This document shows, one piece after another, positions 29,792 through 46,830 of a stretch of 64,000 nucleotides of DNA. Numbering within the stretch: the first letter of the stretch is position 1; each line of letters begins with the position of its first letter. This stretch comes from an uncultured Bacteroidales bacterium (GTDB taxonomy: Bacteria; Bacteroidota; Bacteroidia; Bacteroidales; Muribaculaceae): the NCBI GenBank assembly GCA_902796035.1, contig CADBNR010000063.1:49086-113085 (forward strand), read 5' to 3'. Below the pieces are notes generated by a model. The model was given only the letters and a program-made list of their open reading frames with translations. It was not told the origin of the DNA and searched no databases. The position numbers and the translations under genes are program-made.

Positions 29792-31996
29792 TTATTTGTG
29801 AACCACGCGGTCTTTCAATTCGGCGAGTTTGCCGCTGTTCCAGCGATCGGTAGTACCCACAAGATAGCCGGTGATGCGCTGGATGGTCTCGAAACGCGCT
29901 CCGCACTTCGGACAGCATGTCTCGTCTTTCTCGGCATTCTCGTAGCCACAGTTGGGACAGTGGTTGCGGTTATGGTTCACCGACCCATAGCCGATGTTGT
30001 ACTGGTCCATCATGTCCACGATCTGCATTATCGATTCCTCGTTGTGGGTGGCGTCGCCGTCTATCTCAACGTAGAAAATGTGTCCGCCAAGCGTCAGCTC
30101 GTGATACGGGCCCTCAATCTTGGCCTTGTGGCGCGGCGAGCAGTGATAATATACGGGCACGTGGTTGGAGTTGGTGTAGTAATCCTTGTCCGTCACGCCG
30201 GGAATCACGCCGAACGTCTTGCGGTCCTTCTTGGTGAAGCGGCCCGAGAGTCCCTCGGCGGGCGTGGCCAGTACGGAATAGTTGTGGCGGTAGTTTTCCG
30301 AATAGGTGTTCACTTTCTCACGCATGTGGCTTACGATGCGCAGACCGAGTTGCTGAGCCTCGTCGCTTTCGCCGTGATGCTTGCCTGTCAAGGCTATCAG
30401 ACACTCGGCCAGTCCGATGAATCCGATGCCGAGCGTACCCTGATTGATGACGCTCTCGATACTGTCGTTGGGTTTCAGGCCCTCGGTATGATTCCACAAT
30501 ACACGCATCAGCAGCGGGAATTGCTTGGCGAAAGCAGTCTTCTGGAACTGGAAGCGCTCGTCAAGCTGCCGAGCCGTCAGATCCATCACCTCGTCAAGAC
30601 GCTCGAAGAATTTGGCAATACGCTCCTCCTTGTCCTCGATACCCATCTGCTCGATGGCGATGCGCACTATGTTGATGGTTGTGAACGACAGGTTGCCGCG
30701 GCCTATGGATGTCTTTTCGCCGAAACGGTTCTCGAACACACGCGTGCGGCATCCCATAGTGGCCACCTCGTGCTCGAAACGGCGCGGATCGCTGGCATCC
30801 CAGGCCTCGTCGCGGTTGAACGTGGCGTCAAGGTTCAGGAAGTTGGGGAAGAAGCGGCGAGCCGACACCTTGCATGCCAATTTATACAGGTCGTAGTTGG
30901 GATCTTCGGGCAGGTAGCTCACTCCCCTCTTTTTCTTCCATATCTGGATGGGGAAGATTGCGGTGGAACCATGGCCGACGCCCTCGTATGTGGATTTAAG
31001 CAGCTCGCGGATTACACAGCGGCCCTCGGCCGAAGTATCTGTGCCGTAGTTGATGCTGGAGAACACTACCTGGTTGCCGCCGCGTGAATGGATGGTATTC
31101 ATGTTGTGTATGAACGCCTCCATCGACTGATGCACACGGTCCACGGTCTTGTTGATGGCGTGCTGGCGCAGGCGCTCGTCACCCTCCATACCGTCGAGTT
31201 CAACTTTCAGATAATCCTTTATTTCGGAATTCTGCAGATGCGACAGGTCGCGGCCAGTCAGTTTCTCCAGATTCTTGATCTCCTCAATATATGAATTGCG
31301 CACGAACGGAGCCAGGTAGAAATCGAATGCCGGGATGGCCTGTCCGCCGTGCATCTCGTTCTGGGCGGTCTCCAGGCTGATGCAGGCTAATACGGATGCG
31401 GTTTCTATACGCTTGGCGGGACGGGACTCGCCGTGACCCACCACGAAACCGCGCTGCAATATGCGGTCCAGAGGATGCTGCACGCAGGTAAGCGACTTGG
31501 TTGGATAGTAATCCTTGTCGTGGATATGAATAAGATTGTCGCGCACCGCGTTGCGCACGTCGGGCGACAGCAGGTAGTCGTCGACGAAGGGTTTGGTGCT
31601 TTCGGAAGCGAACTTCATCATCATGCCGGCGGGAGAATCGGTGTTCATGTTGGCGTTCTCGCGCGTGATGTCGTTGTTCTTGGCCTCGATTATTTCCAGG
31701 AACATGTCGCGGGTGCGGGCCTTGCGGGCTATCGAGCGCTGGTCGCGGTACTGGATATACTTTTTGGCTACATCCTTGCGGGCCGACTTCATCAGCTCGA
31801 CCTCGACGCAGTCCTGGATCTCCTCCACGGTCATGCGCTGCTTGCCGGCGATGCCGATGCGGTCAGCTATTTTCTGAATCAGGGCCTCGTCCTCGCCACG
31901 CTCGGTGGTGAGCATCGCCTTGCGGATTGCCGCCTTGATCTTCTCCTCGTTATATCCCACTACGCGCCCGTCGCGCTTCTCGACTATCTGTATCAT
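29792..31996 (-). CDS. nrdD: Anaerobic ribonucleoside-triphosphate reductase (class III)
   Basis: NrdD makes deoxynucleotides without oxygen, using formate and a glycyl radical. The 734-residue protein starts with an ATP-cone regulatory domain (IVEKRDGRVVGYNEEKIKAAI and so on, to about residue 95). It ends with a zinc site (CPNCGY and CCPKCG) followed by the glycyl radical loop RITGYL, radical glycine at about G710. It is the first gene of nrdD-nrdG. The upstream region holds promoter elements and an inverted repeat (32049-32120). Confidence 0.97.
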   Translation of the reverse strand: MIQIVEKRDGRVVGYNEEKIKAAIRKAMLTTERGEDEALIQKIADRIGIAGKQRMTVEEIQDCVEVELMKSARKDVAKKYIQYRDQRSIARKARTRDMFLEIIEAKNNDITRENANMNTDSPAGMMMKFASESTKPFVDDYLLSPDVRNAVRDNLIHIHDKDYYPTKSLTCVQHPLDRILQRGFVVGHGESRPAKRIETASVLACISLETAQNEMHGGQAIPAFDFYLAPFVRNSYIEEIKNLEKLTGRDLSHLQNSEIKDYLKVELDGMEGDERLRQHAINKTVDRVHQSMEAFIHNMNTIHSRGGNQVVFSSINYGTDTSAEGRCVIRELLKSTYEGVGHGSTAIFPIQIWKKKRGVSYLPEDPNYDLYKLACKVSARRFFPNFLNLDATFNRDEAWDASDPRRFEHEVATMGCRTRVFENRFGEKTSIGRGNLSFTTINIVRIAIEQMGIEDKEERIAKFFERLDEVMDLTARQLDERFQFQKTAFAKQFPLLMRVLWNHTEGLKPNDSIESVINQGTLGIGFIGLAECLIALTGKHHGESDEAQQLGLRIVSHMREKVNTYSENYRHNYSVLATPAEGLSGRFTKKDRKTFGVIPGVTDKDYYTNSNHVPVYYHCSPRHKAKIEGPYHELTLGGHIFYVEIDGDATHNEESIMQIVDMMDQYNIGYGSVNHNRNHCPNCGYENAEKDETCCPKCGARFETIQRITGYLVGTTDRWNSGKLAELKDRVVHK

Positions 31997-32048: not shown

Positions 32049-32106
32049 TGTATCGGAATGTTTTCGAAATGGTATCGAAAATTGAGCACATCCCAATTCC
32101 GATACA
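32049..32106. promoter_or_regulatory. 11-base inverted repeat in the nrdD leader
   Basis: TGTATCGGAAT at 32049-32059 is the exact reverse complement of 32096-32106. The right arm touches the -7 promoter region of nrdD. It could be an operator pair or an RNA hairpin at the 5' end of the message. It does not resemble an NrdR box that I can recall. Confidence 0.55.
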
Positions 32107-32120
32107 AAGTTACAAAATTA
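32105..32120 (-). promoter_or_regulatory. Two tandem -7 elements of nrdD
   Basis: On the minus strand TAATTTTG (32120-32113) and TAACTTTG (32112-32105) lie side by side. Neither has a perfect TTTG at -33. Initiation would be near 32109 or 32101, giving a leader of about 105-110 bases. Confidence 0.55.
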
Positions 32121-32553
32121 ATTCTTTACGACAACTATAAACACCCAAAAATTTCAAAAAATTTTCGTTTTGGAAAACTTTTTAACCCCTCAAAATTTAC
32201 ACGCATCTAATTTTCAATCACTTACAAAATATTTTGGACAACTTTACCCCAATCCGACCATTTAGCCGCTTATCTTTTGCACATACGACCAACATCTGCA
32301 CTATCTATTATTTCCCACCATCACCGGCTCGTTTTTGCCATATTTTTTGCTATGCCATCTGTTTTTTGTTTCCTTAACAGCAGCCTGTTTTTTGCTGTGC
32401 CATCTGTTTTTGTTCCAGTCTGGAGCTTTAGCGACGTCATCTGTCTCCCGTTCCCAGCACTCCTTATCAGTCGAACCCCGCCCTCGTTATTTTACTGCGT
32501 TGAACCTATGTCATATTGAGACATTACATCATATTTATATCAGCACCCAACAT
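32121..32553. other. AT-rich gene-free stretch between nrdD and the CRISPR locus
   Basis: No open frame here looks like a protein. The stretch is AT-rich with long T-runs and contains one diverged tandem repeat (32343-32415). It separates the conserved nrdDG operon from the tracrRNA terminator and probably marks the edge of the acquired CRISPR island. Confidence 0.5.
32343..32415. repeat. Diverged direct repeat with T-runs
   Basis: TTTTTTGCTATGCCATCTG at 32343 recurs at 32388 as TTTTTTGCTGTGCCATCTG, each followed by another T-run. The period is 45 bases. Function is unknown. Confidence 0.6.
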
Positions 32554-32554
32554 T

Positions 32555-32588
32555 AAAAGACAGGAGAGAAATCTTTCGATTTCCCTCC
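32555..32588 (-). terminator. tracrRNA terminator hairpin
   Basis: An 11-pair stem with one G-U pair and a GAAA loop is followed on the minus strand by TGTCTTTT. It ends the tracrRNA before it can run toward nrdD. Confidence 0.85.
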
Positions 32589-32646
32589 TCAGATGTTTTC
32601 ACAACGGAATAATCCTTATTGTGATTTGCTTTAGTTTATTTTTGCG
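32555..32646 (-). ncRNA. tracrRNA of the type II-C CRISPR-Cas system
   Basis: Read on the minus strand, the anti-repeat (about 32646-32618) pairs with the first 17 bases of the CRISPR repeat (16 identical positions plus one G-U pair) and imperfectly beyond. A nexus follows: GGATTATTCC at 32615-32606 forms a three-pair stem. After AAAACATC comes the terminator, GGAGGGAAATC with GATTTCTCTCC around a GAAA tetraloop (32588-32563), then TCTTTT. The ACAATAAGG transition after the anti-repeat is the same as in Neisseria II-C tracrRNA. Length is about 90 bases. The 5' end is predicted from the promoter at 32650-32681. Confidence 0.85.
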
Positions 32647-32649
32647 TCA

Positions 32650-32681
32650 CAAATTTATATCAAAAAAATGAAATCCTCAAA
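32650..32681 (-). promoter_or_regulatory. tracrRNA promoter
   Basis: On the minus strand TTTG at 32681-32678, a 20-base spacer and TAAATTTG at 32657-32650 match the consensus exactly. The -7 element lies inside the degenerate repeat copy that forms the anti-repeat, so RNA would begin near 32646. Confidence 0.7.
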
Positions 32682-32696
32682 TAATAATGCAAAAAA

Positions 32697-32727
32697 TTGT
32701 TTTCATGAACTTATTTTATTAGCTTTG
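32697..32727 (+). promoter_or_regulatory. cas9 promoter
   Basis: TTGT at 32697-32700, a 19-base spacer and TAGCTTTG at 32720-32727 fit the Bacteroidetes consensus. Initiation near 32731 gives a 40-base leader to the cas9 ATG. It diverges from the tracrRNA promoter. Confidence 0.65.
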
Positions 32728-32770: not shown

Positions 32771-35700
32771 ATGAAAATACTCGGACTTGACCTCGGAACC
32801 GCATCAATAGGTTGGAGTGTAATTGATATATCTGACAAAGATTCCAATATCATTCAACTGTTGGGATTAGGCAGCCGCATTATTCAATATGAAAACAATG
32901 AGGCCTCAGATTTCTCTGCGGGAAAAGGTGAGACTCCTTGTTCAAAACGCACTGCAAGACGAACCGCGCGTAAAATGCTTGACCGATTTCAGCAACGCCG
33001 GGAGTCTCTCAGATCATTCCTAATAGAACTCGGAATGATTAATAAATCAGAGTTATTTCCGCCTCTGAATCCACTTGAAACCTGGAAACTCCGAAGCGAT
33101 GCGTCTACTCCTCACACAAAGCTGTCGAAATCGGAAATCGCTCGTGTTTTACTGCACCTCAATAAGCGCAGAGGGTATCGCCATGCAAAGTCCGACATGG
33201 GCGATGCCAAACAGACGGAGTATGTGGCACGCGTAAATAAAAGATTTGCAGAAATCAAAGCCCTAAATAAGACTATCGGTCAATTTTTCTACAACAAGTT
33301 GAAAGAATCCGAGGCAGAAAGTAGTCGGGGTAAGAAACAATACTCATATAGAATTAAGGAAGAAGTATTTCCCCGAGAAGCGTATGCTCAGGAATTTGAT
33401 GCCATTATAAATGCTCAGAAAGAATTCTATCCCGAAATCCTTACTGATGAGAATGTGGGAAAGTTGAAGAATCTGATATTCTATCAGCGTCCCCTCAAAT
33501 CGTGCAAGCATCTTGTGTCATTCTGCGATTTTGAAAAGAGAATCTTTAAAAATGCAGAAGGAAAGGAAGTTGACAGCGGACCAAAGGTAACTCCTAAGTC
33601 GTCGCCATTGGCACAGATGTGTAAATTGTATGAATCAATCAATAATATCCGTCTGGTAAATCCGCGTCTTAAAGGTCGGAAAGTCATGCAACCATCACTA
33701 TACGACGGTTTGGATACGATGCCAACAGATGTTAGGAAGTTACAGCATGAATTCAAAATTAATGCTGAAGAAAGAATGCGGATATTCGATTATCTAAATA
33801 CCAACGAAAGACTATCGGAAAGCAAACTCCTCGGCCTATTAGGTCTGAAGCAGGCCGATGGGTTTAAATCAGACCAGTCCCTTGCTAAAGGAATACAAGG
33901 AAATAAGACGTACTGCGCTATTGCAAAGGCCTTAGCCAACCATCCAGGGAAAGAGGAGCTACTGAAGTTCGATGTCAAGATAACCGATAAGCTCGACAAA
34001 AACACAGGAGCTGTAGAACCTGTAATCGATCTGTCGTATCTTGACGAGCCGCTTTATGAGCTATGGCATACACTATATTCCATCAAAGACAAGAAAGAAC
34101 TGTTTGATTGTCTTACCCGAAAATTCAATATCTCAGATGATGAGACTCTTGAGAAACTGTATGCCATAGACTTCGTAAAAGATGGGTACGCCAATAAATC
34201 CGCAAAGTTTATTCGACGTATCCTTCCTCATCTCATTGAGGGTAATGGCTATAGTAAAGCATGCGAACTTTGTGGGGTGAATCATTCCCACTATGTGACC
34301 GTTGAGGAGAACAATGCTCGCACACTTAAGCATCGTCTTGACTGGCTTAACAAAGGAGAGTTCCGTCAGCCTATTGTAGAGAAAATCATCAATCAGACCA
34401 TTAATCTGGCTAATGCTGTATCAGATCGTTTTGGCGATATCAATGAAGTGCGCATAGAACTTGCCCGAGAACTTAAACAGAATAAAGAAGATAGAGCTGA
34501 AACTACTACAAGAATCAACAAGCAGGAGAAAGAGAACCAGAAATTCGCCGACATGATAGCGGAACTCAACATCTCTCCTACCCGTCGCCGGATACAGAAG
34601 ATGCGAATGCTTCAGGAGACCGGGAATAAATGCATATACTGCGGTGCTGTGGTCACCCCATCCCAATTTATCGAAGGTCATGGATACGAAATAGAACATA
34701 TCATACCTCGCTCCCGCTTATTCGATGACAGTTTTTCCAACAAGGTTTGCTCATGTCGTAATTGTAACAAGGCTAAGGGCGCGCTAACCGGTTATGATTT
34801 CATGAAAACCAAGAGTGATTCCGAATTCAATGCATATCTCGACCGTGTTGAGGAACTTTTCAAGAATGGGAAGATCTCTAAGACTAAGCGCAACAAGCTT
34901 AAGATGTCATCCTCGGAAATTCCTTCCGATTTTATAGAGAGGGATCTTAGGGAAAGCCAGTATATAGCAAAGAAAGCTCATGAGATTCTTTCTCAGATGT
35001 TCAGAAATGTCTACGCTTCATCCGGAGCTGTTACAAGTTACTTCCGTCATGTGTGGGGGTATGACAACGTGCTGCATGACCTAAATCTGCCCAAATACCG
35101 CGATGCAGATCTTGTTGAAGAAGTTGAATACACTACCCACGACCAGACACATACGACAGAACGAATCAAGGACTGGACAAAACGAATGGATCATCGCCAT
35201 CATGCCATAGACGCTCTTGTAATAGCACTCACGCGACAGGGATACATTCAGCGACTGAATACCCTGAATGCAGATTCGGAAAAGTCAGCTTCCGATAAGG
35301 TTAATCTGGATAAATGGGCGTCGGCACAACCTCACATATCTGTCAAGGACGTGCAGGTTGCTGTCAATAACATCTCGGTTTCCTTCAAACCAGGGAAAAG
35401 ACTTGCCACTCCCGGCAAGAGATATGTAAAGCGTAACGGGAAGCGCAAATGTGTACAAAAAGGCATTCTTGTTCCTCGTGGCGCTCTTACTAAAGATTCC
35501 GTTTACGGAAAAATCAAAGTTTCGGTCGGCAAGAAAAATCTGAAATATATATTCACCAGTCCGGATGCCATAGTGGATAACGATGTCAGAACTGCGGTTT
35601 TGAATCTACTGAAAGAAAACGACGGAAATATCAGTAAGATCTTGAAACAACTTAAGAAGTCTCCTTTGGTTGTCAATGGACATACAATAGAACAGGCTGA

Positions 35701-36499
35701 TTGTTACGGAGATGAGTTTGTTATTAGGTATCCGATTGAAAGCATAAAAAGGCAAGCGGATATTAACAGTATTGTTGACTTATCCATCCGCCGTAAGTTT
35801 CAGGAACGTTTTGACGAAGTTGGAGAGAAGGATTTCGTTAAAAGTCTGATTGAAAATCCTATTTGCTCGGATGAGGATGGAAAGTGTGCGATACGTAATG
35901 TCAGATGCTTTACAGGACTTAAAGCAGATACATTGGCGTGCGTCAAGAAAACTCCAACCGGAAAAGAAATCGGGTTCTCTCAAACCAGAAACAATCACCA
36001 TCTTGCATTCTATCGGGAACCGGATGGAAAGATTACTGAGTCTGTTGTATCCTTCTGGGATGGCATCAAGAGGAAACGTTATGGCATTCCTGTAATCATA
36101 ACCGATCCCGCTTCGGTATGGGATATGATTGCGAATATGGAAGACAATTCCGACATTCAGGAGATCATAGCCAAATTGCCGCCACATGACTCTCAGTTTG
36201 TCATGAGTCTGCAGAGAAATGAGATGATGGTGCTTGGAATGAGTGAAGATGAATGGAACGACGCTATCGCATCACGCGATCATGTGGCTTTCAACAGACA
36301 TCTGTATCGTGTATGGAAATTGGCACCTCGTAATTATAATTTCAAATTCCACACAGATACGACAGCCAAAATCAATGACGGAGATAAGGAGATGAAAATG
36401 TTTTATAATATCCAGTCCATAGACTCTTTCTTAGCCCTTAATCCTCATAAGATCAACATTTCACAACTCGGAGAGATAGACTTCGACAATATGTCGTAA
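32771..36499 (+). CDS. cas9: CRISPR-associated endonuclease Cas9, type II-C
   Basis: Cas9 cuts DNA matched by the crRNA-tracrRNA guide. The 1242-residue protein has RuvC-I at the start (ILGLDLGTASIGWS, D7), the arginine-rich bridge helix (about residues 58-80, SKRTARRTARKMLDRFQQRR), and RuvC-II (VRIELARE, E563). The HNH domain has H643 in YEIEHIIPRS and zinc-ribbon cysteines C621/C624 and C662/C665. RuvC-III has HHAIDA at 810-815. All catalytic residues are present, so it should be active. Type II-C is assigned because the operon has only cas9-cas1-cas2, with no csn2 or cas4. Codon use is more AT-rich than in neighbouring genes, suggesting transfer. Confidence 0.97.
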   Translation: MKILGLDLGTASIGWSVIDISDKDSNIIQLLGLGSRIIQYENNEASDFSAGKGETPCSKRTARRTARKMLDRFQQRRESLRSFLIELGMINKSELFPPLNPLETWKLRSDASTPHTKLSKSEIARVLLHLNKRRGYRHAKSDMGDAKQTEYVARVNKRFAEIKALNKTIGQFFYNKLKESEAESSRGKKQYSYRIKEEVFPREAYAQEFDAIINAQKEFYPEILTDENVGKLKNLIFYQRPLKSCKHLVSFCDFEKRIFKNAEGKEVDSGPKVTPKSSPLAQMCKLYESINNIRLVNPRLKGRKVMQPSLYDGLDTMPTDVRKLQHEFKINAEERMRIFDYLNTNERLSESKLLGLLGLKQADGFKSDQSLAKGIQGNKTYCAIAKALANHPGKEELLKFDVKITDKLDKNTGAVEPVIDLSYLDEPLYELWHTLYSIKDKKELFDCLTRKFNISDDETLEKLYAIDFVKDGYANKSAKFIRRILPHLIEGNGYSKACELCGVNHSHYVTVEENNARTLKHRLDWLNKGEFRQPIVEKIINQTINLANAVSDRFGDINEVRIELARELKQNKEDRAETTTRINKQEKENQKFADMIAELNISPTRRRIQKMRMLQETGNKCIYCGAVVTPSQFIEGHGYEIEHIIPRSRLFDDSFSNKVCSCRNCNKAKGALTGYDFMKTKSDSEFNAYLDRVEELFKNGKISKTKRNKLKMSSSEIPSDFIERDLRESQYIAKKAHEILSQMFRNVYASSGAVTSYFRHVWGYDNVLHDLNLPKYRDADLVEEVEYTTHDQTHTTERIKDWTKRMDHRHHAIDALVIALTRQGYIQRLNTLNADSEKSASDKVNLDKWASAQPHISVKDVQVAVNNISVSFKPGKRLATPGKRYVKRNGKRKCVQKGILVPRGALTKDSVYGKIKVSVGKKNLKYIFTSPDAIVDNDVRTAVLNLLKENDGNISKILKQLKKSPLVVNGHTIEQADCYGDEFVIRYPIESIKRQADINSIVDLSIRRKFQERFDEVGEKDFVKSLIENPICSDEDGKCAIRNVRCFTGLKADTLACVKKTPTGKEIGFSQTRNNHHLAFYREPDGKITESVVSFWDGIKRKRYGIPVIITDPASVWDMIANMEDNSDIQEIIAKLPPHDSQFVMSLQRNEMMVLGMSEDEWNDAIASRDHVAFNRHLYRVWKLAPRNYNFKFHTDTTAKINDGDKEMKMFYNIQSIDSFLALNPHKINISQLGEIDFDNMS

Positions 36500-36500
36500 T

Positions 36501-37418
36501 ATGATAAAGAAGACATTAGTATTCTCAAATAAGGTTTATCTTTCTTTAAAATTAAAACAGCTGGTAATAAGGAGGGAGAATGAGCTTACAGGTGAGGAAG
36601 AAGTCATAACTCGTCCGATTGAAGATATCGGAATTATGATGATAGAGAGTGGTCAGGTCACTCTCACGTCATCTCTTGTCTCGGAACTGATTCATAATAA
36701 TATAGGAGTCATTTTCTGCGACTCTAAACACATGCCGGCAAATATGATTCTTCCTCTTGAAGCCCATACACTTCAATCAGAGAAATCAATCGCTCAGATT
36801 CAGGCATCCCTTCCATTGAAGAAGCAATTATGGCAGCAGACTGTATCAGCCAAAATTCTGAATCAAGGAGCAGTTTTACGCCAGGTAACCGGATTGAATG
36901 TAGGGAATATGATTAAATGGGGATCAAGTGTAAGAAGTGGGGATCCGGAAAATATTGAAGGAAGGGCTGCCGCATACTATTGGCGGAATATGTTCATGGA
37001 ATCAGGAAGATTCAGGAGAGATAAGGATGGAGAAGATGACATCAACATTTTTCTAAATTATGGATATGCCATATTACGAGCAATCATTGCACGTAGTATC
37101 GTGGGGAGTGGACTGACACCCTTAATTGGAATCCATCATTCCAATAAATATAATGCCAACTGCCTCGCTGATGATATTATGGAACCATATAGACCGTATG
37201 TCGATTTGCTCGTCGCGGATATGGTGTTGAAACAAAATCTGAATAATGGCTTGGACAAAGAAGCGAAGAAAACGTTACTGACCATTCCTAATTTGGATGT
37301 GAGTTTCGGGAAAATCCGACGTCCTCTGCTCGTGGCGGCATCCATAACAACATCATCACTTGCAAAATGTTTCTCAAAAGAAAGCAGGAAAGTGGTTTAT
37401 CCGAGAATCCCGATTTAA
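36501..37418 (+). CDS. cas1: CRISPR integrase Cas1, type II
   Basis: Cas1 joins new spacers into the array together with Cas2. The 305-residue protein begins KKTLVFSNKVYLSLKLKQLVIRREN, with EDIGIMMIESGQVTLTS following, as in type II Cas1. The metal-binding residues are in the glutamate of NIEGRAAAYYW, GIHHSNKYNANCLADDIMEPYRPYVD, and nearby acids. It starts two bases after the cas9 stop codon and 18 bases before cas2, so the three are one operon. Confidence 0.96.
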   Translation: MIKKTLVFSNKVYLSLKLKQLVIRRENELTGEEEVITRPIEDIGIMMIESGQVTLTSSLVSELIHNNIGVIFCDSKHMPANMILPLEAHTLQSEKSIAQIQASLPLKKQLWQQTVSAKILNQGAVLRQVTGLNVGNMIKWGSSVRSGDPENIEGRAAAYYWRNMFMESGRFRRDKDGEDDINIFLNYGYAILRAIIARSIVGSGLTPLIGIHHSNKYNANCLADDIMEPYRPYVDLLVADMVLKQNLNNGLDKEAKKTLLTIPNLDVSFGKIRRPLLVAASITTSSLAKCFSKESRKVVYPRIPI

Positions 37419-37436: not shown

Positions 37437-37787
37437 ATGGCGCATTACGTTTCCTACGACCGAATTAGTTCTTATCAACTCATGTGGATATTAATCATGT
37501 TTGACCTACCTACGGAAACAAAGATACAACGAAAGGATGCCTCGGATTTCCGTAAATATTTAATAACCGATGGCTTCACGATGTTTCAATATTCCATATA
37601 TGTCAGGAACTGCGCCTCCAAAGAAAATACTGATGTTCATGTAAACAGAATAAAAAAACAGATACCCAACGAGGGTAAAGTATGTATCATTACAATAACC
37701 GAACGCCAGTTCAGAGAAATTTTGCTATTTGAAGGTACGAAGAAAAGCACGCCAATTCCGGATGCCATCCAACTTGAGCTATTTTGA
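37437..37787 (+). CDS. cas2: CRISPR-associated protein Cas2
   Basis: Cas2 is the structural partner of Cas1 in spacer capture. The 116 residues show the ferredoxin-like core: MWILIMFDLPTETKIQRKDASDFRKYL with the conserved aspartate, GFTMFQYSIYVRNCASKEN, and KVCIITITERQFREI. It is the last gene of the cas operon and is followed after 75 bases by a terminator. Confidence 0.96.
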   Translation: MAHYVSYDRISSYQLMWILIMFDLPTETKIQRKDASDFRKYLITDGFTMFQYSIYVRNCASKENTDVHVNRIKKQIPNEGKVCIITITERQFREILLFEGTKKSTPIPDAIQLELF

Positions 37788-37862
37788 TATAGCAGGGTTT
37801 GGTTTCTAAAGGATAGAAGATATCGCTGATAATGTAGAGAGGACTATTCTTCTACAGAAAAT

Positions 37863-37892
37863 AAAAACGCTCCAATTTCAAGGAGCGTTTTT
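37863..37892. terminator. Bidirectional terminator between the cas operon and the CRISPR array
   Basis: AAAAACGCTCC (37863-37873) pairs perfectly with GGAGCGTTTTT (37882-37892) across an eight-base loop. The stem's own A and T ends supply a T-run in both directions, so it can stop cas transcripts (plus) and array transcripts (minus). Confidence 0.85.
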
Positions 37893-37906
37893 TAATCCTA
37901 CTAACC

Positions 37907-37934
37907 ATTGTATTGCAATGAATATCAATACAAT
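37907..37934. repeat. 9-base inverted repeat next to the array
   Basis: ATTGTATTG at 37907-37915 pairs with CAATACAAT at 37926-37934 over a 10-base loop. It sits between the shared terminator and the leader-distal repeat. Its role is unknown. Confidence 0.5.
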
Positions 37935-37945
37935 ACACACATTGT

Positions 37946-39685
37946 GATGTGATTCGTAGTGCAAAAATAATAAATCTAAAGCAAATCACAACTCGGTCAG
38001 ACAGGCGGCACACTTCGTTCCGGATGTGATTCGTAGTGCAAAAATAATAAATCTAAAGCAAATCACAACCCAGTCGTTAAGGCTCCAGAAGTCGCGGATG
38101 ATGTGATTCGTAGTGCAAAAATAATAAATCTAAAGCAAATCACAACCCGGTGCCATGCCTTCGGCGACTTTTGTGGATGTGATTCGTAGTGCAAAAATAA
38201 TAAATCTAAAGCAAATCACAACTAAGAGCACGGTCGATGCGTTCAAGTCCGTTGGATGTGATTCGTAGTGCAAAAATAATAAATCTAAAGCAAATCACAA
38301 CGGGGTCATACGCCTTGACTACATTCCTGCGGATGTGATTCGTAGTGCAAAAATAATAAATCTAAAGCAAATCACAACGGTCTTGCCACACTTCCCAGAG
38401 AGGACTATGATGTGATTCGTAGTGCAAAAATAATAAATCTAAAGCAAATCACAACCGGAAGCTCATATCCATATTTCTCCAAAATGATGTGATTCGTAGT
38501 GCAAAAATAATAAATCTAAAGCAAATCACAACGCCATCACACGCAGGCTCCCGGACTACGAGATGTGATTCGTAGTGCAAAAATAATAAATCTAAAGCAA
38601 ATCACAACCGCCAGCCATTCGCCAAACTCAACGTTTTCGATGTGATTCGTAGTGCAAAAATAATAAATCTAAAGCAAATCACAACGAAGTCGATTACGTG
38701 CAGAGTCTGCTGGCCGATGTGATTCGTAGTGCAAAAATAATAAATCTAAAGCAAATCACAACACTTTTTTTTGTACAAAAAATTATGGTAACGGATGTGA
38801 TTCGTAGTGCAAAAATAATAAATCTAAAGCAAATCACAACACACCAAGAAAGCCGAGGAGGCGAGGAGGGATGTGATTCGTAGTGCAAAAATAATAAATC
38901 TAAAGCAAATCACAACGAGTGGATATAGCATGAGAAATGACATGGAGATGTGATTCGTAGTGCAAAAATAATAAATCTAAAGCAAATCACAACATACTCG
39001 CGATTATCGTTATTTTCTTTGTCGATGTGATTCGTAGTGCAAAAATAATAAATCTAAAGCAAATCACAACATGCTGCTCGCATTGCCTATGTTTGCAGTT
39101 GATGTGATTCGTAGTGCAAAAATAATAAATCTAAAGCAAATCACAACAGCAATCAATTTAACGACACATTCGCATAAGATGTGATTCGTAGTGCAAAAAT
39201 AATAAATCTAAAGCAAATCACAACTGCCTTGATCGTGAATCGGGTCTTGCCCTTGATGTGATTCGTAGTGCAAAAATAATAAATCTAAAGCAAATCACAA
39301 CTCATTGCACACAATTACACACAATTGCACAGATGTGATTCGTAGTGCAAAAATAATAAATCTAAAGCAAATCACAACGGACGGGGTTCGGTGGCGCTGT
39401 GGCTACTGATGTGATTCGTAGTGCAAAAATAATAAATCTAAAGCAAATCACAACGCAGGCAGCCTTAAGCTCGGTGAGAGGGCCGATGTGATTCGTAGTG
39501 CAAAAATAATAAATCTAAAGCAAATCACAACAGCACCATCATGTCGGCGCAGACAAGGACGGATGTGATTCGTAGTGCAAAAATAATAAATCTAAAGCAA
39601 ATCACAACGTGCCGAGTGACACCACTTTAAAAATAAACGATGTGATTCGTAGTGCAAAAATAATAAATCTAAAGCAAATCACAAC
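37946..39685 (-). CRISPR. CRISPR array, 23 identical 47-base repeats and 22 spacers of 29-31 bases
   Basis: On the minus strand the repeat starts GTTGTGATTTGCTTTAGATT and ends GAATCACATC; it is also bounded by a 7-base inverted repeat (TGTGATT and AATCACA). All 23 copies are identical, including both ends. Most periods are 77 bases; spacers begin at 37993, and one is 31 and two are 29 bases long. Transcription must be on the minus strand because only that strand pairs with the tracrRNA. The leader end is therefore at 39685, next to the P1 nuclease promoter. No ordinary leader promoter is visible there. Each repeat holds a promoter-like pair: GTTG at repeat bases 1-4, 19 bases, TATTTTTG at 24-31. 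Confidence 0.97.
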
Positions 39686-39827: not shown

Positions 39828-40655
39828 ATGAAATTTACAAGATTCGCAAAAATCACAAACATTGCGGGTGTGATGGCGCTGTGCGCGCTCCCGTCGTTCG
39901 GCTGGAGCCAGAAAGGACATGACACCGTGGCATTCATAGCCGAAACCCACCTGACACCGGCCACCAAGGCTGCGGTCGACTCGTTGCTTGATGGTAAATC
40001 GATAGTTTACTGGTCCAACTGGCTGGACAATGCGTCGCATACGCCCGAGTATGCCTACAGCAAGACCTGGCATTACAAGAACATCGACGCCGACCAGTCG
40101 TTCCGCAGCGCTCCTCTCCTGCCGAGCGGTGACATAGTGCGCGCCATCAACGAGCAGGTGGCCGTCTTGGCCGATACCAACATTGATGACAGCCGGCGCG
40201 CCCTGGCACTTAAGATTGTAACCCACCTCCTTGGTGACATCCATCAGCCCATGCATTTAGGCCACGCGTCAGACCGTGGCGGCAACTCCTGGACAGTGAA
40301 ATACTTCAAACAGCCTACAAACCTGCATTCGCTGTGGGATTCGCGCCTGGTGGAGTCCGGTCACAAGTGGAGCTATACCGAGTGGCAGCAGCAGATTGAC
40401 CGCGCCACGCCCGCAGAGGTCGAGGTGATACTCACCGATGCTTATCCCGAACATTGGGCCGAGGAAACTTACGAAATATGCAAGCAGGTGTATGCCGCAA
40501 CGCCGCAGGACACCAACGTAAGCTATGACTACATAGCTCAGTGGACTCCGACAGTAGAGCAGCAGTTCCTGCGTGGAGGCCTGCGTCTGGCCGACATACT
40601 CAACACCGTGTTCGACCCCGACTACAAAGGCCACTGGTCTCCGCTAAAGAAGTAA
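39828..40655 (+). CDS. Secreted S1/P1-type nuclease
   Basis: This zinc nuclease cuts single-stranded nucleic acids and removes 3' phosphates. The 275-residue precursor has a signal peptide (IAGVMALCALPSFG) followed directly by WSQKGH. In this family the mature N-terminal tryptophan and the nearby histidine bind zinc, so cleavage before W is expected. Further ligand motifs are DNASHTPEYAYSKTWHY, THLLGDIHQPMHLGH and DRGGN. It works in the periplasm or outside the cell, probably to scavenge nucleotides. It is the first gene of the plus-strand run that follows. Confidence 0.94.
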   Translation: MKFTRFAKITNIAGVMALCALPSFGWSQKGHDTVAFIAETHLTPATKAAVDSLLDGKSIVYWSNWLDNASHTPEYAYSKTWHYKNIDADQSFRSAPLLPSGDIVRAINEQVAVLADTNIDDSRRALALKIVTHLLGDIHQPMHLGHASDRGGNSWTVKYFKQPTNLHSLWDSRLVESGHKWSYTEWQQQIDRATPAEVEVILTDAYPEHWAEETYEICKQVYAATPQDTNVSYDYIAQWTPTVEQQFLRGGLRLADILNTVFDPDYKGHWSPLKK

Positions 40656-40672
40656 AGTCCCGGATACAGATA

Positions 40673-41167
40673 ATGGCAGATACTCATAAGGACTTTCCGA
40701 CGTTAAATCTTCCCCCGGTCAAGCTTAAGCTGCAGACCGGGGCCGACGGCGTGGAGCGCGTATGGGATCCGTTGCGCAAGAAGTATGTGGCGCTCACTCC
40801 CGAGGAATGGGTGCGTCAGCACTTCGTGAACTGGCTCATGACCGACCGCAAGTTCCCCGCCTCACTGCTCGGCAACGAGGTGGGTATTCACCTCAACGGC
40901 ATGTCACGACGCTGCGACACCATCGCATTCGGCCGTGACACAAAGCCATTAGTGATAGTGGAATACAAGGCGCCTGACGTGAAGATTACCCAGGACGTGT
41001 TCGACCAGATAGTGCGCTACAACATGGTGCTTCACGCCCAATACTTAGTGGTGAGCAACGGCCTGAACCATTACTGCTGTCGCATCGATTATGCCGGCAA
41101 CACATATCATTTCATACCGCGAATCCCGCAATACGCGGAAATCGCATTACCCTTCAGCGAACAATGA
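40673..41167 (+). CDS. Small PD-(D/E)xK-like protein with type I restriction HsdR N-terminal domain
   Basis: The chosen start at 40673 gives 164 residues and follows the P1 nuclease stop by 17 bases; an upstream ATG at 40541 lies inside that gene. The protein matches the stand-alone HSDR_N_2 group: FPASLLGNEVGIHLNGMSRRCDTIAFGRD and VIVEYKAPDVKITQDVFDQI contain the D...ExK nuclease core, and VVSNGLNHYCCRIDY ends it. These short proteins are common in Bacteroidetes and their role is not established. It overlaps the UvrD helicase gene by four bases, which suggests joint function in DNA processing. Confidence 0.85.
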   Translation: MADTHKDFPTLNLPPVKLKLQTGADGVERVWDPLRKKYVALTPEEWVRQHFVNWLMTDRKFPASLLGNEVGIHLNGMSRRCDTIAFGRDTKPLVIVEYKAPDVKITQDVFDQIVRYNMVLHAQYLVVSNGLNHYCCRIDYAGNTYHFIPRIPQYAEIALPFSEQ

Positions 41168-43515
41168 CCCAACCGACTCCGGATTACAGATATCTCGATA
41201 AACTGAACGACCAGCAGCGCACCGCCGTGGAATACCTCGACGGCCCGTCGCTGGTGATAGCAGGCGCCGGATCGGGCAAGACCCGCGTGCTGACCTACAA
41301 GGTTGTGCACCTGCTGAACTGCGGCTATCAGCCTCACCGCATCCTGGCGCTGACCTTCACCAACAAGGCGGCGAGGGAAATGAAGGACCGTATCTCCGCA
41401 CTGGTGGGCCCGCAGGCCGCCCACCGCATCCCGATGGGCACGTTCCACTCCATCTTCCTGCGACTGCTGCGAAATCATGCCGAGCTGTTGGGTTTCAAGC
41501 CCTCGTTCAGCATATACGACACCACCGACTCGCGTAACCTGGTTAAGATGATAATCAAGGACCTGGGGCTCTCGGACAAGGACTACAAGCCGGCCACCAT
41601 ATTCTCGTGCATATCCAACGCCAAGAACGCCATGCTCACTCCCGACGAGTACGCGCGTCAGTATGGCGGCCACGACATGAAGGCGCGCAGGCCCATGACG
41701 GCCAGGATATTCCAGATGTACGTGGATCGCTGCAGGATGGCCAACGCCATGGACTTCGACGACATCATCTTCTTCATGAACAAGTTGTTGTCGGAGCATC
41801 CCGATGTGCGTCAGCGATACTCCGAGCAGTTCCGCTACATACTCGTCGACGAGTATCAGGACACCAACTACGCCCAGCACTTAGTCATATCACAGCTCGC
41901 CGCTCCCGACAACAAGCTGTGTGTCGTCGGCGACGACGCACAGAGCATCTACTCGTTCCGTGGCGCCAACATCAACAACATCATCGACCTGGAGCGATTC
42001 TATCCCGGTCTGAAGACATTCAAACTGGAGCGCAACTACCGCTCTACGCAGAACATAGTGAACGCCTCCGGCTCGCTGATAGAGAAGAACACCCGTCAGT
42101 TGGCCAAGAACGTTTACAGCGAGAATGCCGAGGGGGCGCCCGTGGATATAGTACAGACATACAGCGACCTGGAGGAAGCGTCACTCGTAGCGGCGCGCAT
42201 AGCGCAGAGCGTGCTCACGGAGCACGACACCTACGAGGACTATGCCGTGCTGTACCGCACCAACGCGCAGAGCCGCGTATTGGAGGAGGCGTTGCGCAAA
42301 CGCTCCATGCCCTACCGCATATACGGCAGCACCGCCTTCTACCAGCGCAAGGAGGTAAAGGACGCCTTGGCTTATTTCCGTCTCATCGTCAATCCCGACG
42401 ATGACGAGTCGTTGCGGCGCATCATCAACTACCCCGCCCGAGGCATCGGCGAAACCACATTGAAGAAAGTGCGTGATACGGCACTTTCAGGCAAGGTAAG
42501 TATGTGGCAGGTATTGGCCAATCCCGACCTCTATCCCCTGCCGGTCAACAGCGGCACACGCGGAAAACTTGACAGGTTCGTGGAATTGATGCGTCAGTTC
42601 ATGACCGACAGCGCCACGCATAACGCATACGAGGTAGGTCAGTTGGTGTACAACCGCACCGGGATGCTGTCCATGCTGGCACACGAGAACACGCCCGAAA
42701 GCATCAGCCGCCAGGAAAACCTGACCGAGTTGCTGCGCAGCATGAAGGAGTTCGTGGAATTCCGCATTGAAAGCGGCGAGGGCGATGTATCTATGACCTC
42801 GTTCCTCAGCGAAGTGATGCTGGCCACCGACCAAGACCAGAAAGACGAGCAGGCCGGTCCGAAGGTTACCCTGATGACGGCACACGCCGCCAAGGGACTG
42901 GAATTCAAGCACGTCTATATCGTAGGCGTGGAGGAAGAACTGTTCCCCTCGGCAATGGCGCTTGAATCCATGTCAGAGGTGGAGGAGGAACGCCGCCTGT
43001 TGTATGTGGCCATGACCCGCGCCAAAGACACGTGTATGCTCAGCTACGCGAAGTCGCGCTTCCGCAACGGCCAGACCGTGATGACATCGCCCAGCCGGTT
43101 CCTGAGCGACATCGATCCGAAGTTCGTCAAGATGGAGACGTCGGGCATGGAGGATGACTTCACCAATCCGGTGATGAACTACCGCAGCAGTTTCGGCGGC
43201 TACGGTACTTCCTCGCGTACCCGAAGCTACGGATCGTCGCAATCTTCCGAATCGCTGAATTTCGGCGGTTTCGTCTCGGCTGCAAAGCTCAAGTCGCGCA
43301 AGAATACGGATGCCAAATCCCTCGACGAAATGCCCACTCACACAATGCAGGAGCTTAAGAAGGGCATGAAAATCGAACATAAGAAGTTCGGAATAGGTTC
43401 TATTAATGACTTCACAAGCGTTTCCGGACTCGAAGGCATTGTCGTGGAATTCGAGAATGTGGGTGTGAAACGACTGTTGTTGCAATTTGCCAAGTTCAAT
43501 ATAATCGATGATTGA
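41164..43515 (+). CDS. UvrD/PcrA/Rep-type superfamily 1 DNA helicase
   Basis: This ATP-driven 3'-5' helicase works in repair and replication restart. The 783 residues carry the SF1A motifs: Q motif LNDQQRTAV, Walker A AGAGSGKT (33-40), TFTNKAAREMKDR, LVDEYQDTN, GDDAQSIYSFRGA, ERNYRSTQNI, VTLMTAHAAKGLEFKHVYIVG, and EEERRLLYVAMTRAKD. The C-terminus ends with the PcrA-like domain (HKKFGIGSINDF). It is translationally coupled to the HsdR_N-like gene and overlaps nspC by eight bases. PcrA is the closer label, but UvrD cannot be excluded. Confidence 0.95.
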   Translation: MTQPTPDYRYLDKLNDQQRTAVEYLDGPSLVIAGAGSGKTRVLTYKVVHLLNCGYQPHRILALTFTNKAAREMKDRISALVGPQAAHRIPMGTFHSIFLRLLRNHAELLGFKPSFSIYDTTDSRNLVKMIIKDLGLSDKDYKPATIFSCISNAKNAMLTPDEYARQYGGHDMKARRPMTARIFQMYVDRCRMANAMDFDDIIFFMNKLLSEHPDVRQRYSEQFRYILVDEYQDTNYAQHLVISQLAAPDNKLCVVGDDAQSIYSFRGANINNIIDLERFYPGLKTFKLERNYRSTQNIVNASGSLIEKNTRQLAKNVYSENAEGAPVDIVQTYSDLEEASLVAARIAQSVLTEHDTYEDYAVLYRTNAQSRVLEEALRKRSMPYRIYGSTAFYQRKEVKDALAYFRLIVNPDDDESLRRIINYPARGIGETTLKKVRDTALSGKVSMWQVLANPDLYPLPVNSGTRGKLDRFVELMRQFMTDSATHNAYEVGQLVYNRTGMLSMLAHENTPESISRQENLTELLRSMKEFVEFRIESGEGDVSMTSFLSEVMLATDQDQKDEQAGPKVTLMTAHAAKGLEFKHVYIVGVEEELFPSAMALESMSEVEEERRLLYVAMTRAKDTCMLSYAKSRFRNGQTVMTSPSRFLSDIDPKFVKMETSGMEDDFTNPVMNYRSSFGGYGTSSRTRSYGSSQSSESLNFGGFVSAAKLKSRKNTDAKSLDEMPTHTMQELKKGMKIEHKKFGIGSINDFTSVSGLEGIVVEFENVGVKRLLLQFAKFNIIDD

Positions 43516-44644
43516 TACACCATATTACATAGTATATGAGGATCGGCTCCGGGCCAATCTGGAGAAACTGAAACGGGTGGCCGAAGCCGCGGACGTCAAG
43601 ATCATAATGGCGTTCAAGGCCAACGCACTGTGGAAGACATTCCCGGTGATAAAAGAATATTTCCACAGCTCCACGGCCAGCTCGCTGAACGAAATGAAAC
43701 TGTCGCTGGGCTACTTGGGCAATGACGTGCACGCCTATTGCCCGGTATACACCGAGCGGACATTCCCCGAGTTCCTGAAAGGGTGCAGCCACATCACGTT
43801 CAATTCGCTGGCCCAGTACGAGAAATTCCGTCCTCAGATTGAGGCGGCCGACCGAAAGGTCAGCGTCGGACTCCGTGTCAATCCGCACTGCAGCGTAATC
43901 GAGACAGACATATACAATCCGTGCGTGCCCGGCTCGCGCTTCGGCGAGAATCCCGACAAACTCGCGAACGGACTCCACGCGGGCATCGAAGGACTGCACT
44001 TCCACGCCCTGTGCGAGAGCGACAGCCACGATCTGGAGAAAGTGCTGGATGCGTTCATAGAGCAATACGGACACCTGCTGCCCGGGCTTAAATGGCTGAA
44101 CATGGGCGGCGGTCACCTCATAACGCGCAAGGACTATGACACCGAGCATCTGATTAAGCTGATGAAGCGTATGCACGAGCGGTACCCCAACCTGGAGATA
44201 ATACTTGAACCGGGGAGCGCATTTACATGGCAGACCGGTGACCTTGTTACCGAGGTTCTCGACGTGGTGGAGGACGCCGGCATCAAGACCGCCATAATCG
44301 ACGCCTCGTTTGCCTGCCACATGCCGGATTGCCTGGAGATGCCCTATCAGCCCCGCGTTGAGGAGGCCATCGGTACCGTGGCCGACGGTGCCGACTCGCC
44401 ACACAGATACCGCCTCGGCGGCAATTCGTGCCTTTCGGGCGACTATGTAGGCGACTGGTGCTTCGACCATCCGCTAAAGCCGGGCGACCGTCTGACACTC
44501 TGCGACATGAACCATTACACCACGGTAAAGACCAACATGTTCAACGGCATTCAGCATCCCTCCATCTGGTTCCAGCCACGCGAAGGTGAAGCCGTGCTGC
44601 TTCGCGAATTCACCTACGACGACTACCGCGACCGCATGGACTGA
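43508..44644 (+). CDS. nspC: Carboxynorspermidine decarboxylase
   Basis: NspC is a PLP enzyme of the alanine racemase fold. It decarboxylates carboxyspermidine or carboxynorspermidine in the alternative polyamine pathway used by gut Bacteroidetes. The 378 residues have the PLP lysine K37 in [55 protein letters not shown], and the active-site cysteine region [17 protein letters not shown]. It overlaps the helicase gene by eight bases. Its partner carboxyspermidine dehydrogenase is not in the window. Confidence 0.95.
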
Positions 44645-44691
44645 CTCCCACTCCTCCCAATCTTCCCAACTCTCCCAAACCCCGATTTACA

Positions 44692-46830
44692 ATGGAATTC
44701 AAACTGACATCAGAATACATGCCCACGGGCGACCAGCCCGAAGCCATAGCCGAGCTGGCCGAGGGTGTCCGCAACGGACTCCCCCACCAGACTCTGCTCG
44801 GCGTCACCGGCTCCGGCAAGACCTTCACCATGGCCAACGTGATACAGCAGGTGAAGCGTCCCACGCTGATACTGTCGCACAACAAGACGCTGGCCGCGCA
44901 GCTATACTCCGAGATGAAGTCTTTCTTCCCGGAGAATTCCGTGCAGTACTTCGTCTCATACTATGACTACTACCAGCCCGAAGCCTACATACCCGGCAGC
45001 GACAAATACATAGAGAAGGACCTGATGATCAACGAGCAGATCGACAAGTTGCGTCTCTCCACGGCTGCGGCCCTGATGTCTGGACGCCGCGATGTCATAG
45101 TGGTGTCGTCGGTGAGCTGCATCTACGGCATGGGCAATCCCGAGGACTTCCGCCAGACGGTCGTATCGGTCAAGGTTGGCCAGCGCGTGAGCCGCAACCA
45201 GTTCCTGCGCGACCTGGTCAGCTCGCTGTACAGCCGCACGGAGACCGACCTGCAGAGCGGTCAGTTCCGTGTGCGAGGCGACACGGTGGACATCATGCTG
45301 TCGTTCGAGGAGATCAGGTTGCGCGTGGTGTTCTGGGGCGACGAGATCGAGAAAGTGCAGACCGTGGACCCCGTATCGGGTGCGGTGCTTACCGACCTTG
45401 AGGGATTCAACATATATCCGGCCAACATCTTCGTGACAAGCAAGGAGCGCACCGCCAAGGCCGTGGACCAGATAGCCGTGGATCTGGGCAAGCAAGTTGA
45501 CTTCTTCATGCACGAGGGAAAGATTCTGGAAGCAGAACGGCTCCGTGAGCGCGTGACGTACGACCTGGAGATGATCAAGGAATTGGGCCACTGCAGCGGC
45601 ATCGAGAACTATTCGCGATACTTCGACGGGCGCGAACCGGGCATGCGTCCCTTCTGCCTCCTGGACTATTTCCCTAAGGACTTCCTGACCATCATTGACG
45701 AGAGTCACGTGACGCTGCCGCAGATACGGGGCATGAACGGCGGCGACCTGTCGCGCAAGATGAACCTGGTGGAATACGGTTTCCGTCTGCCCGCGGCCAT
45801 CGACAACCGCCCTCTGAAATTCGAGGAGTTCGAGCGTCTCACGCCGCAGACCATCTATGTGAGCGCCACGCCTGGCGACTATGAGCTGCAGCAGACCGAG
45901 GGCGTGTTTGTGGAACAGGTGATACGTCCCACGGGACTTCTCGACCCCGAAATCGAGATACGTCCGACCCTGAACCAGATAGACGACCTGATGGAGCAGA
46001 TACGCCAGCGCATAGACGCCGACGAGCGCGTATTGGTCACCACCCTCACCAAACGCATGGCCGAGGAACTGAACAAGCACCTTATAAAATGGGGCATCAA
46101 CTCGGCCTATATCCACAGCGACGTAGACACATTGGAGCGCATCAAGATCTTGGAGGATCTTCGCGAGGGCGTCTACGACGTGCTGATAGGTGTGAACCTG
46201 CTGCGCGAGGGTCTGGACCTGCCGCAGGTAAGCCTCGTGGCCATCCTGGACGCCGACAAGGAGGGATTTCTGCGCAACCACCGCAGCCTGACGCAGACCG
46301 CAGGACGCGCCGCGCGTAACGTGAACGGCCGTGTCATAATGTATGCCGACAAGATAACCGACTCCATGCGCCAGACCATAGAGGAGACCAACCGCCGCCG
46401 CGCCAAGCAGATGCTTTACAATGAGGCGCACGGCATCACTCCCACCCCCATCGCCAAGAAAAGCCACAACGAGCTGGTGGAAATCTACGGCGAGGCGGCA
46501 GAGGCCAAGGCGCAGAACCCGACCAAAGGGAAGACAAGGATACCGAGTCCCCAGAAACCTCAGAATCCGACCGCGTCGCGCAAACCGCGTCCTTATATCG
46601 AAGAAGAACACCAGGCTGTATTCGCCGCCGAACCGGTGCTGGAATATATGACGCCGCCCGAGCTGGAGAAACAGATAGAGATAGTGAAACGCGACATGAT
46701 AGACGCGGCACGCCGCACCGACTTCATCGAGGCTGCTCGCCTGCGCGACCAGTTGGTGGGACTGCAGGATATGCTCGAATCGCGTACCGAAGCCACAGAA
46801 ACAGCTACAGATGCAGCAAAACAAAATTGA
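44692..46830 (+). CDS. uvrB: Excinuclease ABC subunit B
   Basis: UvrB verifies damage in nucleotide excision repair and recruits UvrC. The 712-residue protein has Walker A GVTGSGKT (37-44), the beta-hairpin [26 protein letters not shown], the helicase motif [19 protein letters not shown], and a C-terminal UVR domain (about 658-700, [14 protein letters not shown]) that binds UvrC. It ends 20 bases inside the YgiQ-like gene. It lies in a plus-strand run with another repair helicase. Confidence 0.98.

Follow-up and report, generated by a model that had tools for sequence, protein, structure and literature searches.

Host-type promoter elements within every repeat of a long-repeat type II-C CRISPR array from a Muribaculaceae bacterium

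The question raised by the locus described here is from where the guide RNAs of its CRISPR array are transcribed. The array lies in a 64,000-nucleotide stretch of an uncultured Bacteroidales bacterium (contig CADBNR010000063.1), which was analysed as a whole and is called the window below. It occupies positions 37946–39685, with the minus strand as the crRNA strand, and consists of 23 identical 47-nt repeats separated by 22 spacers of 29–32 nt. In each repeat GTTG (bases 1–4) is followed, after 19 nt, by TATTTTTG (bases 24–31), and then by 16 nt that lead to the spacer. As described in the accessible part of PMC7366714, Bacteroides sigma-ABfr promoters have TAnnTTTG at −7 and TTTG near −33. 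The original prediction was that each repeat carries its own promoter of this Bacteroidota type.

The genes that precede the array, all on the plus strand, are cas9 (32771–36499; 1242 amino acids; TIGR01865, E 2e-139, with RuvC_III and HNH_4), cas1 (36501–37418; TIGR03639, E 1.2e-86), and cas2 (37437–37787; TIGR01573, E 8.2e-20). This order, with the array following cas2 and with neither csn2 nor cas4, identifies the system as type II-C. Consistent with that, a tracrRNA with an anti-repeat, a nexus-like hairpin, and a terminator hairpin is predicted on the minus strand (32555–32645). The best anti-repeat in the window (32618–32637, minus strand) pairs with repeat bases 1–20 only, and thus the TAnnTTTG box lies outside the pairing region. 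Directly past the last repeat on the crRNA strand there is an intrinsic terminator (37863–37892, minus strand) with an 11-pair stem and a T run, the strongest of three terminator-like sites in the region (2.5 in shuffles); the fold of the region around it (37850–37945) has a z of −6.3. The anti-repeat pairing, the promoter elements, and the terminator jointly indicate the minus strand at the level of sequence, and the rule given in the available text of PMC6737040 is that II-C arrays are transcribed opposite to the cas genes. Protospacers were sought as an independent proof of the strand, but no phage matched when the whole array was used as the query; exact matches of 4 of the 22 spacers were likewise absent from viral_contigs. 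Rfam at gathering thresholds returned nothing within the window.

By published II-C polarity, the 39685 end, which had earlier been taken as the leader side, would be the old, leader-distal end of the array. By the same polarity, the interval between the last repeat and the terminator (37893–37945, no strand assigned) is a putative acquisition leader. It contains a perfect 9-bp inverted repeat, ATTGTATTG/CAATACAAT, that forms a hairpin in the fold, and a palindrome is reported in the corresponding interval of Riemerella leaders in the part of PMC5006608 that is available. A search of genome_contigs for near relatives that could reveal spacer polarity found two loci with a Cas9 identity of 41%, which were of no use for this purpose.

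The elements of the repeat are rare outside the array. The pattern KTTG-N19-TAnnTTTG occurs at 26 sites in the window as compared to 0.17 expected from shuffles, and 23 of these 26 are the repeats. Likewise, the 27 matches to GTTG-N19-TAnnTTTG in the whole 2.2-Mb host genome comprise the 23 repeats and 4 others (a reversed control pattern gave 1 match). The presence of this arrangement in each of 23 identical repeats, as originally claimed, was borne out. Inside the array, TAnnTTTG is present 23 times on the crRNA strand and once on the opposite strand. How the repeat compares with host promoters was assessed in 20 stretches of the same genome together with the window, with 163 upstream regions. 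Upstream of the open reading frames, TTG-N18-20-TAnnTTTG was found 30 times (12 times on the opposite strand of these regions), against 0.3 expected under a Markov model. The gap between TTG and the box had its peaks at 20 nt, with 19 sites, and at 19 nt, with 10 sites, the gap in the repeat being 19, and the base 3' of the host box was C in 59% and A in 3% of cases, the repeat having C. GTTG, which was proposed as the −33 element on the basis of a three-of-four match to TTTG, is a rare variant in this host: it was present in 1 of the 30 upstream sites, as compared to 21 with TTTG.

A weight matrix trained on 32 host sites gave the 23 repeats scores of 14.0–18.1 (median 16.1). These are comparable to the scores of the promoter-like site of the predicted tracrRNA, TTTG-N20-TAAATTTG (32650–32681, minus strand; 15.9), and of that of the cas operon, TTG-N20-TAGCTTTG (32697–32727, plus strand; 18.0), the latter being upstream of an open reading frame used in training. 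Sites that reach the lowest repeat score, 14.0, numbered 4 in 2 × 298,695 coding positions and were present in 39 of 169 upstream regions. Host-type promoter elements, with a minority variant of −33, are present in 23 of 23 repeats. One GTTG-N19-TAACTTTG site lies elsewhere in the window (32105–32135), 109 nt before the gene for anaerobic ribonucleotide reductase (29792–31996, minus strand), and suggests that GTTG may act as a −33 element elsewhere in this host.

We looked for a promoter that could serve the array from outside, among Bacteroidota-type and sigma-70 promoters. In the 300 nt before the array, the best matrix score was 1.7, as compared to 14.0–18.1 in the repeats, and the 400 nt that precede the first repeat lack TAnnTTTG on the crRNA strand, in agreement with the earlier claim that no ordinary leader promoter is seen beyond 39685. 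The sigma-70 promoters were rejected as drivers of the array, as the array region had 6 of them versus 7.3 in shuffles. Nevertheless, one could imagine that transcription begins before 39685, at a promoter that is weak or escaped recognition, and yields a single long pre-crRNA that RNase III cuts with the help of tracrRNA, the boxes in the repeats being of minor importance. A near-miss, TTG-N18-TAAATTTC, near 39832–39858 could be such a promoter, and in Riemerella promoters outside the repeats have been proposed, although on the cas2 side, according to the accessible part of PMC5006608. However, the near-miss is the very site with the flank score of 1.7. Moreover, none of the four genes identified upstream (39828–46830), for S1/P1 nuclease, UvrD, a decarboxylase, and UvrB, is co-directional with the array; they all run away from it, which makes read-through into the array unlikely. 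Promoter enrichment in the 200-nt 5' flanks of 60 long-repeat arrays was only slight (TTG-N18-21-TAnnTTTG at 3 sites versus 0.7 expected, with 3 also on the opposite strand). Finally, the part of the first repeat that tends to be lost in such arrays, as described below, is the half that pairs with tracrRNA. Taken together, these results make a single external start very unlikely. In the 200-nt 3' flanks of 61 long-repeat arrays, we also observed fewer TAnnTTTG boxes than expected in the direction that leads from the leader to the array (1 versus 8.9 expected; other strand, 6 versus 11.2).

The original prediction called for a survey of other Bacteroidales II-C repeats. With Cas9 or Cas1 as queries, we searched two overlapping sets of genomes of the order (295 and 393) and 395 genomes of the phylum, and obtained 160 regions. 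In the first search of the order, the hits in 118 of the 295 genomes were above the cut-off, and 80 regions were retrieved; in the second this was so for 141 of 393, with 20 regions obtained out of 40 requested, and in the phylum for 65 of 395, with 60 regions retrieved. Before the last 20 regions of the order were added, arrays had been detected in 117 of 143 sources. Among the distinct long II-C repeats of the order, which differ in sequence but are related and thus not independent, TAnnTTTG was present in 54 of 65, in 48 of them at 18–20 nt after base 4, that is, within one base of the spacing in the window, and 45 of the 65 had exactly TATCTTTG. Shuffles of the same 65 repeats gave a mean of 0.25 and a maximum of 3 in 500. 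Outside the order, in other orders and classes, the exact box at a gap of 18–20 was found in 1 of 25 long repeats (one of these 25, L120, is a wrong-strand duplicate), while TAnnTT thereabouts was present in 13 of 25, even though the pooled hosts outside the order also show the promoter motif. Among the short repeats, the box was present in none of 15 in the order, including a doubtful 33-nt tandem (L082), and in 4 of 23 outside it, at gaps of 16 and 21, with one artefact (L160) among the 23. The in-repeat box is thus a feature of the long-repeat systems of this order and not of II-C systems across the phylum. In several 36-nt II-C repeats, inspection revealed TTTG at bases 8–11 and a partial TAnnTT at the end, at about bases 31–36; such repeats could represent another way of placing a promoter in the repeat, in which transcription starts within the spacer.

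The survey and the genome counts also bear on the simplest objection, namely that an AT-rich repeat, the GTTG of which is dictated by the end of the repeat, resembles a promoter by chance. The repeat is indeed AT-rich. Yet the pattern is rare genome-wide, and 48 of 65 repeats, related as they are, stand against a shuffle mean of 0.25. Chance resemblance is rejected on the basis of the shuffles and the genome counts, and we find it hardly credible.

Another role that could be assigned to the conserved block is in spacer acquisition. The TATCTTTG-like block might be a protein-binding or ruler motif of Cas1–Cas2 that spaces the two cuts of repeat duplication, as if its promoter look were incidental and the array were transcribed from elsewhere. 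In support of that, the stretch between box and repeat end is about as constant in length (16 nt in 25 of 41) as that between base 4 and the box (18 or 19 nt in 33 of 41), and several repeats from outside the order retain the block as TTCTTTG, without TA. On the other hand, the block coincides with the host −7 consensus, its gap lies at the peak of host promoters, and, in an exploratory comparison given below, the C that follows it tracks host preference. In addition, the oldest II-C repeat, which by published polarity is not a target of acquisition, usually retains the block. We therefore regard a ruler motif as unlikely, and continue with promoters within the repeats as the preferred reading.

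The oldest repeat was inspected across the surveyed arrays. According to the available text of Feussner 2025 (PMC12080349), 60% of II-C systems carry mutations in the first and oldest repeat, most of them within the initial 15 nt, with the proposed role of blocking extraneous crRNA while promoter function must be kept; the main text of that paper contains no match for Bacteroid, Flavobacteri, or TAnnTTTG. Our counts omit a 34-nt artefact (L160), wrong-strand calls (L203), arrays at most 120 nt from a sequence end, and arrays with N nearby. Outer bases were lost from the oldest repeat in 43 of 72 readable long-repeat arrays, so that the oldest repeat is mutated here as it is in the published systems; the −7 box as the boundary of the loss comes from the present analysis. 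Among the arrays with an exact consensus box and at least 4 outer bases lost, the loss stopped short of the box's TTTG in 22 of 23 (p = 0.0023 under a uniform null). When L043 and L044, two arrays of one genus, are left out, this holds for 20 of 21 (p = 0.005). The exact box was retained in 16 of the 23 eroded terminal repeats, or in 14 of 21 without these two. In L204 the loss cuts the box, and in L089 the box is interrupted by foreign sequence.

When the oldest repeats were compared base by base over 46 arrays whose consensus box is exact, 72 of 184 cells were mismatched at bases 1–4, 176 of 552 at bases 5–16, and 11 of 276 in the box. As bases 1–4 are mismatched as often as bases 5–16, the −33 element is not retained in the oldest repeats; a search for TTG at a gap of 18–21 gave only 6 matches among 28 eroded terminal repeats. 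Moreover, the bases 3' of the box (16 of 722 mismatched) are no less well preserved than the box, so that retention does not single it out. The loss is not always pure erosion: in 5 of 38 arrays with at least 4 bases lost (L044, L050, L051, L089, and L156), a copy of the outer half was found upstream, indicating an insertion. By inspection, the oldest repeats of L050, L051, L089, and L156 contain short inserts, some of them palindromic and GC-rich, between the half that pairs with tracrRNA and the half with the box; these inserts might also serve as terminators or guide traps.

In one genome (G292), a promoter-like unit that belongs to a dispersed family interrupts the oldest repeat at TATCTTT, exactly at TATCTTTG. 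With at most 3 mismatches, the core of this family matches 52 times in G292, 56 times in G109, and 28 times in G021; a reversed control gave no match. Neighbouring copies are often 75–90 nt apart, many of them 83–84 nt, and the 13 other units listed end in TATCTTTG or a one-base variant of it. After the insertion in G292, the first spacer stands behind TTTG-N20-TATCTTTG, the −7 box of which is the repeat's own. This fusion is a single case and as such only suggestive. In the same three genomes (loci L221–L232), the dispersed unit ends in CTCGCCTTTCACTATCTTTG, contains a palindrome, is often arranged in tandem, and sometimes lies right before a gene. The unit may insert at −7 boxes or duplicate them.

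If the repeats are promoters, their bases could follow the preferences of their hosts. We compared the base 3' of the box in 53 genomes with an exact box in the repeat, counting A, C, and T but not G, with one array that lacks an exact box (L116) dropped. In this exploratory comparison, in which the test was picked after the base preference in the window's own genome had been seen, p-values are uncorrected and family is the sole control for kinship, C followed the box of host TTTG-N19/20-TAnnTTTG sites with a median of 0.69 in hosts of C-repeats (n = 9) versus 0.47 in hosts of A-repeats (n = 34; p = 0.006; by families p = 0.023; GC-adjusted p = 0.003). Without the window's genome, these exploratory values were p = 0.013 and, by family, 0.057. 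For the use of A at this position, there was no covariation between repeat and host (p = 0.25).

The host promoter statistics, the conservation of the box across the order, the absence of a promoter in the 5' flank, and the box retained in most degraded terminal repeats together favour in-repeat promoters as the best reading: each repeat is probably a moderate promoter for the primary sigma factor of Bacteroidota, as judged from sequence. In such a promoter, TTG at repeat bases 2–4 would be the −33 element and TATTTTTG at bases 24–31 the −7 element, and transcription would start near base 35–37. In the first repeat on the crRNA strand, in which the elements occupy 39655–39685 (minus strand) in the arrangement repeated in the 22 others, the predicted start is near 39649–39651. 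RNA polymerase could enter at every repeat and produce 11–13 nt of the repeat, the spacer, and the next repeat, and could then go on toward cas2 up to the terminator at 37863–37892. The tracrRNA, made from its own TTTG-N20-TAAATTTG site, would pair with repeat bases 1–20 and allow guide maturation by RNase III and Cas9. As all these transcripts would run in the same direction, the spacers proximal to cas2 would be covered by the largest number of promoters. Initiation, the position of the start, read-through, processing, and the gradient of expression are what we infer from these elements.

In Neisseria meningitidis and Campylobacter (Zhang 2013, Dugar 2013), II-C arrays reportedly have promoters embedded in the repeats, with the start at or in the spacer, and the element is said to be sigma-70-like and to lie at the end of a 36-nt repeat. 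Both PMC13187072 and PMC12080349 refer to these arrays. The system described here is like these in being type II-C, in having a probable promoter per repeat, an array that is probably transcribed opposite to the cas genes, and a predicted tracrRNA near cas9, but it differs in that the TAnnTTTG box is inside a 47-nt repeat and the predicted start is 11–13 nt before the spacer. Thus, of the idea that the layout is the same as in Neisseria and Campylobacter, the promoter in each repeat is favoured by the evidence, whereas full equivalence is not. The primary RNA would not be free of 5' processing by design, and the repeat RNA at its 5' end would have to be trimmed or tolerated. By inspection, the repeat ends in CGAATCACA, which can pair with TGTGATTTG at the beginning of the following repeat. 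A primary crRNA that bears repeat sequence as a 5' tag could thus fold back on itself, in competition with tracrRNA.

That each repeat encodes a promoter in II-C systems is stated in the available part of PMC13187072, and proposals of this kind have been made within the Bacteroidota. For Flavobacterium columnare, which has 36-bp repeats, a repeat-encoded promoter was proposed, with TTG 33 bp before the spacer and with transcript support of eight reads; in F. psychrophilum TAnnTTTG was assigned to cas9 and TTG to the repeat, the distance of TTG to the spacer in the two II-C systems being 33 or 35 bp (accessible parts of PMC8092290 and PMC10309648). These are Bacteroidota with a proposed repeat promoter, as here, but, as far as these texts go, TTG alone is assigned in the repeat. 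CRISPR1 of Riemerella anatipestifer resembles the present locus in its 47-nt repeats, its spacers, which are of 30 nt there, its cas9-cas1-cas2 order, and an anti-repeat before cas9. In the available parts of PMC5006608 and PMC6008519, promoters are proposed in the leader between cas2 and the array, and the former reports none in the repeats. The sigma-ABfr promoters are described for ordinary genes in the excerpts of PMC7366714, and no CRISPR array was found in B. thetaiotaomicron. A TAnnTTTG box within a CRISPR repeat was not found in the literature searched, mostly without subscription papers and preprints. In-repeat promoters and degraded first repeats (published 2025) were thus already known for II-C; what differs here is that the box is that of the sigma factor of Bacteroidota, that it lies within a long repeat, and that the predicted RNA start precedes the spacer.

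As the −33 and −7 elements, the start, and the first transcribed bases would all be contained in the long repeat, initiation would be independent of the spacer, unlike in the 36-nt design. It seems to us an evenly balanced proposition that the long (45–49 nt) repeats of the order are in general self-contained promoters, in which about 11 extra nucleotides are a transcribed 5' tag, the 3' end of which is able to pair with the next repeat, and in which the promoter preferences of the host shape the repeat. If the reading of the repeats as promoters is true, guide expression would not depend on spacer sequence, and with a start signal in each repeat, each stored memory of a virus could be switched on separately. 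It could also account for the extra length of these repeats, which exceed other II-C repeats by about 11 nt, it would give reason to re-examine the reported lack of promoters in 47-nt repeats, and it would provide a compact natural tandem promoter. The evolution of CRISPR repeats under the sigma-factor preference of the host would become testable, and a large group of long-repeat II-C systems would have a readable rule of guide expression, by which the newest, cas2-adjacent spacers get the largest number of promoters.
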